This document shows, one piece after another, positions 20,003 through 22,325 of a DNA stretch of 64,000 nt (position 1 is the stretch's first letter; every line of letters begins with the position of its first letter). A program made the position numbers and the translations under genes. The DNA is from Deferrisoma camini S3R1 (lineage in GTDB: Bacteria > Desulfobacterota > Deferrisomatia > Deferrisomatales > Deferrisomataceae). Below the pieces are notes generated by a model. The model worked only from the letters and a program-made list of their open reading frames with translations. It had not been told where the DNA came from and searched no databases. The stretch lies in the NCBI RefSeq assembly GCF_000526155.1, contig NZ_JAFN01000001.1, positions 2,939,014 to 3,003,013 of the forward strand, written 5' to 3'.

Positions 20003-21511
20003 ATGGCGGAGAGCCTGACGATCGAGGCCAGGGCGGGGCGGGTGTATCTGCGGGTGCCGCACGACCCGGCCCCGTTGTCGGCGGTGGTGCGCAGGCTCCG
20101 GCAGGACCTGCCCGGGGTGGCCATCGACTGGGTGGCGGTGCGGGAGGCCTACCTGTACGGCCGGGGCCGGGCGTTTCCGGTGGCCCACCGTAGTGCCGAG
20201 GCGTTCCGCGGCGAGAAGGCCAAGATCCGGTTCTCCGACGACGGGCTGACCGCCTACCTGATCCTGTACCCGCCCAAGGGCCGGGGGGCCCGGCTCACGG
20301 AAGAGGAGCTGGGCGAACTCGTGCGCGCCTACGGCGTGCCCGACGAGCTCTTGGACGCCGACGCCCTGCGGCGGGCGTTCCTGCGGCGCAGCTACCTGGA
20401 GCCCGAGGGGATCGCCCGGGGCCGTCCGCCGGTGGACGGACACCCCTCTCGGGTGGAGTGGCGGGGCGGAGCCCCGGTGGATCCCGACGCGTTCCTGTCG
20501 GCCCTGGAGGCCGGCGCCGACATGGCAGAGCCCTCTCTGCTGGTGGTGGAGCCGGGGCAGGCCGCGGGCACCTTCGTGCCCCCGGGCCGGGGCACACCGG
20601 GGCTGACGGTGAGGGGGGAGCCGATCCCGCCCCGGCCGGGGGAGAACCGGGTGCGGCTGGGCGCGGGGCTGGGCTTGGCGCCCGACGGCCGCACGGTGGT
20701 GGCCCAGGCGGCAGGCCAGGTCCGATTCACCGACCCGGAGCGCTCGCAGGCGTACCTGATGCCGGTGGTGCGGGTGGCGTCGGCCCAGGACCTGCGGCGG
20801 TGGAGGGACGAGGTCATTCCCGCCACGGTGGTGGTGGAGGGGGACCTGGAGGCGCCGTTCCCGGTTCGGGTGCTGGGCGACCTGGAGGTCCGGGGCAGCC
20901 TGATCCGCTCCCCGGTGGAGGTGATGGGCTCCCTGTTCACGGCGGCCGGAGTGATCCAGACCCGTGCGGTGCCCCTCCGGGTGGGCGGCGTGGTGTCGGC
21001 CGAGTTCTTCGAACGGGCCCACGTGATCGCCTCGGTGATCCATGTCCGCCGATACTCCATGAAGGGCCGCCTCACCGCCCTTCGAGCGATCTGGGTGGCC
21101 GGCGGCGGGGCCTGCCGGGGCGGGCTCCTGGAGGCGGGCGAACGGATTCGGGCCGGGGAGCTCGGAAGCCCCAACAACCTGGCCACCGAGGTCTCGGTGG
21201 CACGGGTCCGGATCATCGACCCGTTCCGGTCCGCCTTCTCCGGCTGGGCCGCCTTGCTCTCCCAACAGGCCCGAACCGAGGGAGCCCCCGCCTCCCTGGA
21301 AGCGGCCGCGGACGAGTGGGAAGCCCGGGCCCAGGCCCTGCCCGAACCCGATCCGATCCGAGGCCGGGTCGAGGCGGAAAAGGTGTTCCCCGGGGTCACG
21401 GTGCGGGTGGGCACGGCCGTGCGGAAGATGGAGAACCCGGTGGGCCGGGTCGAGTTCACCTACGAGCGGTTCGGCCCCCACGGCCGGGTCGCCATGCAGC
21501 GCAAGGGCTGA
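20003..21511 (+). CDS. FapA / DUF342 family polymer-forming protein
   Basis: A 502-residue soluble protein of the FapA (DUF342) family. The N-terminal region (about 1-160) matches the family pre-domain. The core (about 190-400) has the repetitive right-handed beta-helix style, for example VVVEGDLEAPFPVRVLGDLEV and GSLIRSPVEVMGSLFTAAGV. The C-terminus (VEAEKVFPGVTVRVGTAV...YERFGPHGRV) matches the usual ending. In other bacteria FapA-like proteins are linked to surface, membrane or signalling functions, but the mechanism is unclear. The ATG follows GAGAGGG. Confidence 0.75.
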   Translation: MAESLTIEARAGRVYLRVPHDPAPLSAVVRRLRQDLPGVAIDWVAVREAYLYGRGRAFPVAHRSAEAFRGEKAKIRFSDDGLTAYLILYPPKGRGARLTEEELGELVRAYGVPDELLDADALRRAFLRRSYLEPEGIARGRPPVDGHPSRVEWRGGAPVDPDAFLSALEAGADMAEPSLLVVEPGQAAGTFVPPGRGTPGLTVRGEPIPPRPGENRVRLGAGLGLAPDGRTVVAQAAGQVRFTDPERSQAYLMPVVRVASAQDLRRWRDEVIPATVVVEGDLEAPFPVRVLGDLEVRGSLIRSPVEVMGSLFTAAGVIQTRAVPLRVGGVVSAEFFERAHVIASVIHVRRYSMKGRLTALRAIWVAGGGACRGGLLEAGERIRAGELGSPNNLATEVSVARVRIIDPFRSAFSGWAALLSQQARTEGAPASLEAAADEWEARAQALPEPDPIRGRVEAEKVFPGVTVRVGTAVRKMENPVGRVEFTYERFGPHGRVAMQRKG

Positions 21512-21927: not shown

Positions 21928-21969
21928 CGAAACCGCCGATCCGATCAACCCCCTCCAAAGGAGCCGTCG

Positions 21970-22287
21970 ATGATCGAGTTGACCGACAAAGCAAGGGAGA
22001 AGCTCAAGGAATCCCTTCAGGAGCACGGCGAGAACCCGGCCGTGCGCATCTACATCTCGGGCATGGGGTGAGGCGGGCCCTCCTGGGGCCTGGCTCTGGA
22101 CGAGCCCAAAGACGACGACACCGTGCAGCCCGAGGACGGGTTCCGGCTGGTGATGAACCAGTCCCTGCTCGCCCAGGTGGGCGGGGTCCGGGTGGACTAC
22201 CTGTCGGGTCCCCTGCGCCGGGGGTTCGTGGTGAAGGCCCGGTCCCAGACCGGGGACTGCGCCTCCGGCTGCTCGGGCGGCTGCTGA
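21970..22287 (+). CDS. IscA/HesB-like selenoprotein (UGA read as selenocysteine)
   Basis: A 105-residue A-type iron-sulfur carrier-like protein whose reading frame is intact except for one TGA at 22069-22071. Reading that codon as selenocysteine gives Sec34 in SGMG-U-GGPSWGLALDEP, exactly where IscA/HesB proteins carry their first cluster cysteine. The frame continues through the typical domain (FRLVMNQSLLAQVGGVRVDYL, GFVVKA) to a cysteine-rich tail GDCASGCSGGC (Cys97, 101, 105). AAAGGAG lies upstream of the ATG. Hairpins follow the TGA. HesB-like selenoproteins are a known family in anaerobic deltaproteobacteria. Ordinary gene calling splits or loses this gene. Function is inferred to be iron-sulfur or redox chemistry. 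Confidence 0.9.
22069..22106 (+). promoter_or_regulatory. Candidate bacterial SECIS element with Sec UGA codon
   Basis: After the TGA (22069-22071), GGCTC (22092-22096) pairs perfectly with GAGCC (22102-22106) around the 5-nt loop TGGAC. The loop begins 25 nt past the UGA and has G in its second position. As I recall, the bacterial SECIS model requires a small apical loop with a G in the first two positions, roughly 16-37 nt from the UGA. A second hairpin, GGCCC/GGGCC at 22076-22090, lies between. The exact fold is not computed here. Confidence 0.65.
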
Positions 22288-22290
22288 CCC

Positions 22291-22325
22291 GGGGCCTTCG
22301 GCCCGCCCAGCGGGCCGAAGGCCCC
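22291..22325. repeat. Perfect 16-bp inverted repeat after the selenoprotein gene
   Basis: GGGGCCTTCGGCCCGC (22291-22306) is followed after 3 nt by its exact reverse complement (22310-22325), starting 3 bp beyond the selenoprotein stop. It is two copies of the intergenic-repeat stem head to head. The rest of the gap to 22362 is inverted GACCGAAGTTA-type repeat. It may end both convergent transcripts, though no T-run is present. Confidence 0.7.

Follow-up and report, generated by a model that had tools for sequence, protein, structure and literature searches.

The window, the 64,000-nt stretch of Deferrisoma camini S3R1 DNA analysed here, carries an IscA/HesB-like gene of the A-type iron-sulfur (Fe-S) carrier kind that is split by an in-frame UGA (Table 1). 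On read-through its product is a protein of 105 residues, MIELTDKAREKLKESLQEHGENPAVRIYISGMG-U-GGPSWGLALDEPKDDD...GDCASGCSGGC, and the terminator of the gene itself, at 22285-22287, is again a TGA. The start codon, length and UGA position given in the initial annotation proved exact, and the ribosome-binding site that it had proposed is present before the ATG; most class relatives of the gene have a GGA/AGGA-type site upstream of the ATG. Reading through a TGA is a permissive operation in DNA of this composition: 292 of the 1007 TGA triplets on both strands of the window (29%) are followed by 71 open codons, so that an open frame alone is weak evidence. Because chance open frames are this common in the GC-rich window, the case for the gene rests on homology and comparison.

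Table 1. Positions in the window of the IscA/HesB-like gene and its sequence features
Feature	Position	Strand	Description and basis
Sec-containing IscA/HesB (A-type carrier-like) gene	21970..22287	+	105 codons and stop TGA; homology, class conservation, fold model
Shine-Dalgarno AAAGGAG	21957..21963	+	6 nt upstream of ATG 21970; sequence
In-frame UGA, predicted Sec, residue 34	22069..22071	+	first cluster Cys position of A-type carriers; codon comparison
SECIS hairpin GGCUC-UGGAC-GAGCC	22092..22106	+	5-bp stem, 5-nt loop, G at loop positions 2-3; comparison
Cys-rich tail C97-ASG-C101-SGG-C105	22258..22284	+	codons 97-105; candidate further metal ligands; sequence

The neighbouring genes, named by reading their sequences, are FapA-like, receiver-like and methyltransferase-like. 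We found no conserved gene neighbourhood indicating function, the neighbours being partly common to close relatives only. The FapA/DUF342-like gene (window 20003-21511) also lies near the Sec gene in four relatives (L021, L022, L024 and L027), with no functional link between the two evident from them. Between the Sec gene and the convergent methyltransferase-like gene there is a perfect 15-bp G+C-rich inverted repeat (window 22291-22325) with the loop CCCAG and without a T-run, a possible two-way terminator; a scan for sigma-70 promoters and terminators gave no match.

Searches of the read-through protein with HMMSCAN recovered the curated NCBIfam model NF038090 (IscA_HesB_Se) over residues 1-102 at 89.8 bits, above its curated cut-off of 85; in a six-frame search with the TGA treated as a stop the score was 82.5. 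As its first ligand NF038090 calls for Sec or Cys, and this is the position at which the gene has its TGA codon. TIGR00049 (57.7 bits, cut-off 58.8), TIGR01911 HesB_rel_seleno (49.1 bits, cut-off 66.35) and PF01521 (26.2 bits, cut-off 26.3) were also matched, each below its cut-off, and all four family matches span the UGA. The equivalog cut-offs were missed for IscA (43.2 against 150.6 bits), SufA (46.1 against 136.2) and ErpA (47.0 against 117), and a profile search of solved structures returned AQ_1857, HI1723, IscA and SufA. Judged by these profiles, the gene belongs among the HesB-like selenoproteins already known and covered by NF038090. It resembles the TIGR01911 proteins in that its UGGP fits the UxGP motif of HesB-like selenoproteins (PMC13188914), but its score is too low for that model and it hence falls under NF038090 instead. 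It shares the fold and the first-ligand position with the canonical IscA, SufA and ErpA proteins (PF01521, TIGR00049), from which it differs in having Sec for Cys, in the spacing of its tail cysteines and in scoring below the equivalog cut-offs.

That the family is not new had been recognized from the outset, and both the curated model and the literature bear this out. In 2006 the HesB-like selenoprotein had 11 members with two Sec-to-Cys conversions (PMC1794560). An archaeal HesB-like selenoprotein has been identified by mutagenesis and 75Se labelling; its function is unclear, and a disruption mutant was obtainable and still fixed nitrogen (PMC11097638). A literature search combining the genus Deferrisoma with selenoprotein found no paper.

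To compare the codons of this family we assembled a set of 90 distinct genes, drawn from the class and the phylum. The initial annotation had anticipated Cys or Sec at position 34 in the homologues, and the set contains nothing else: 67 genes have TGA and 23 have TGY. Well-supported branches of the tree force at least 10 switches between Sec and Cys. Adjacent Sec and Cys copies, about 90-350 nt apart, occur in many genomes of the phylum (loci L036, L039-L041, L049, L062, L066, L073-L075, L080, L081 and L087). The homologues from the class form a single clade with support of 100/100 and share the motif UGGP[ST]WG, in contrast to the UxGPSL common elsewhere in the phylum.

An AlphaFold2 model built from 43 window and locus sequences has a mean pLDDT of 83, with residues 95-105 of the tail below 50 and disordered. 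Its best Foldseek matches are IscA (1R94; E-value 2.9e-6), SufA (2D2A) and holo-IscA (1X0G), and the protein is thus predicted to have the A-type fold. In the 43-sequence alignment C97 and C101 are nearly invariant, and most relatives keep at least three tail cysteines, with varying spacing. The CxxxCxxxC tail pointed out earlier, which differs from the CxC of canonical IscA, holds for the window gene and two congeners (G006 and G007) but not for the clade, where eight of the 12 class tails have CxC and another contains just one Cys. The latter, L031 from genome G003, ends in SNVPSAC, unlike every other class member. Since this homologue keeps only one tail Cys, the tail ligands are not universal; together with the varying spacing, this weakens a strict three-ligand model, since such a carrier site would not hold for the family at large.

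The genomic context of Fe-S assembly sets this gene apart. A search of the genome for PF01521 proteins found none besides it, and TIGR00049 matches nothing but the UGA gene in any of the 12 class genomes. SufBD was not found in any of these 12 genomes, whereas all 14 control genomes gave matches, and a NifU/IscU-type scaffold is present in each of the 12. The genome containing the window has a NifU-like gene followed by a NifS/IscS-like gene (both named by reading sequences), and this NifU is the only IscU/NifU-type scaffold found there. The scaffold and carrier parts found across the class are accordingly the NifU-type scaffold and this Sec A-type protein only. Across a 118-genome sample of the phylum, a TGA homologue is present in 46, as counted from the listed rows; of these, G097 alone has a canonical A-type gene above the cut-off as well. 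What is new here is that a class lacking SufBD has, in all 12 of its genomes, no A-type homologue other than the selenoprotein. A 2009 survey found A-type carriers to be absent from many deltaproteobacteria and mentions selenocysteine in a reference title only (PMC2682760); truncation of such genes at the UGA may have contributed to these absences.

We propose that Sec34 replaces the first cluster-binding Cys of an A-type carrier, acting as a cluster or redox ligand, and that the C-terminal cysteines probably complete the cluster site. The protein would most likely receive Fe-S clusters from NifU and hand them on to apoproteins, and under anaerobic conditions the selenolate may provide a ligand that is softer and either exchanges more easily or is redox-active. 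We would put the carrier function itself at roughly even chances. The main rival of this model is that the protein is a true selenoprotein with the A-type fold but not an Fe-S carrier, Sec34 being instead a redox centre or a binder of soft metals or selenium. Most uncharacterised selenoproteins are expected to be redox proteins (PMC13188914), and such a role would sit well with the missed IscA/SufA/ErpA cut-offs, with a tail pattern that varies and is nearly gone in one relative, and with the position of the Sec gene, which does not adjoin or cluster with nif/isc genes. Nevertheless, Sec occupies the exact place of the cluster Cys and is exchangeable with it, three or more tail cysteines persist in most relatives, the class has no other A-type homologue, and the protein has UGGP rather than a UxxC or CxxU redox motif; a redox or soft-metal role therefore seems to us a possibility to be entertained, if a somewhat doubtful one.

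Both the carrier model and this rival take residue 34 to be Sec, and the machinery for its insertion is complete. The initial annotation had singled out selA, selB, selC and selD, and our search of the window's own genome (one contig, 4.24 Mb) located selA (591.7 bits), selB (340.3 bits), selD (353.5 bits) and a tRNA-Sec with the anticodon UCA (72.6 bits). The selD gene carries an in-frame UGA of its own in the context CGUAAK, and SelD is thus a selenoprotein too (L110, G000:C1 about 2674700-2675650, - strand).

The best evidence for the selenoprotein is comparative and comes from the hairpin downstream of the UGA. In the window gene this hairpin lies 21-35 nt 3' of the UGA, with its loop 25 nt after it. 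Its commonest forms across the Sec genes follow the consensus GG[CU]UC-UGGAY-GA[GA]CC, and the departures from it are a UGGCU loop in one case, G-U pairs, and a single U-A pair close to the stem base. The stem forms with all five of its pairs in 67/67 Sec genes as against 0/23 Cys genes, the Cys set having been picked in part from tandem pairs and open-frame hits. The C-G to U-A compensation is complete, with the U at +23 paired with an A at +33 in six of six cases. The codons underlying the hairpin are correspondingly constrained: the third base of codon 42 is T in 67/67 Sec genes but in only 2/15 of the Cys genes with Ala or Val there (Fisher p = 2.4e-13), although of the 399 Ala codons at other positions of the Sec genes only 57 are GCT, and Leu43 is CTG in 67/67 Sec genes versus 9/21 Cys genes (1.4e-9). 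As these Fisher tests ignore relatedness, we also used tree-independent Sec/Cys pairs, on a tree built without the Sec/Cys column and the SECIS-coding columns; the hairpin tracks the UGA in 10/10 pairs (sign test p = 0.002). The 13 tandem Sec/Cys pairs give a clean comparative demonstration of the same association: every time the full stem is found in the Sec copy only and is missing from the neighbouring Cys copy.

Within the window the family-specific SECIS motif follows just one of the 1007 TGAs. The stem pairs with a mean probability of 0.76 in the window gene; the figure is 0.88 over the Sec set as a whole and 0.02 in the Cys genes. The minimum free energy (MFE) of +19..+37 in the window gene is -7.7 kcal/mol. 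The bSECIS model allows a loop of 3-9 nt, a stem of 4-16 bp, a G in the first two loop positions, a distance of 16-37 nt from the UGA and an MFE of -7.5 kcal/mol or lower (PMC13188914). The window hairpin falls within these limits: it has a 5-nt loop with G at position 2 and a 5-bp stem, stands 25 nt from the UGA and passes narrowly in its energy. An Rfam scan returned tRNA only and no SECIS family match. A hairpin nearer the UGA, GGGCCCUCCUGGGGCC, is strong in the fold of the window sequence, yet no more than about 12 nt separate its loop from the UGA; it was set aside, the downstream hairpin being the one conserved in 67/67 Sec genes. A bacterial SECIS check, advised in the initial annotation, hence comes out in favour of a hairpin that is present and goes with the UGA. 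We infer that SelB and tRNA-Sec decode UGA 22069-22071 as Sec, directed by this hairpin within the coding sequence, and on sequence grounds the gene almost certainly encodes a selenoprotein.

A reading of the UGA as Trp or Cys, through suppression or a change of code, could draw on the homologues that have Cys at position 34. However, the genome has the complete Sec machinery, UGA doubles as the gene's own terminator at 22285, and the hairpin accompanies the UGA and is missing where the codon is one for Cys; we therefore rejected this reading as highly improbable.

The class-wide record of the gene likewise speaks for its integrity. Each of the 12 class genomes has a single homologue, interrupted by a single in-frame TGA that always falls at the same codon. 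Wherever dN/dS was computable (one dS was saturated), no pair or segment on either side of the UGA reached 0.5, and several close pairs stayed below 0.1; the values for the two sides are, for instance, 0.00 and 0.10 in the comparison with L022 and 0.02 and 0.05 in that of L029 with L030. These ratios point to purifying selection on both sides of the UGA, and the decay in close relatives that would have spoken against the gene is not seen. That the locus is a pseudogene, or a gene decayed through a nonsense mutation, for which one could cite only the literal in-frame stop and the frequency of chance open frames after TGAs (292/1007), was rejected as extremely improbable on the UGA conservation and the dN/dS ratios, with the intact ribosome site and the SECIS-specific constraint also standing against it.

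Taken as a whole, the explanation offered here, with a UGA-decoded Sec A-type protein at its core, appears to us quite probable. The locus itself is of modest interest, as a well-supported addition to a known selenoprotein family; the point to carry forward is that the whole class relies on a selenoprotein for its sole A-type homologue. More tentatively, and at less than even odds, in the class and much of the phylum the selenoprotein may have replaced the canonical A-type carrier and rendered Fe-S delivery selenium-dependent, and the reported A-type absences (PMC2682760) may partly be an artefact of UGA truncation. Surveys of Fe-S assembly genes can miss carriers that contain a UGA. A class without SUF, in which a selenoprotein is the sole A-type homologue, offers a natural system in which to ask if Sec serves as a ligand in an Fe-S carrier.
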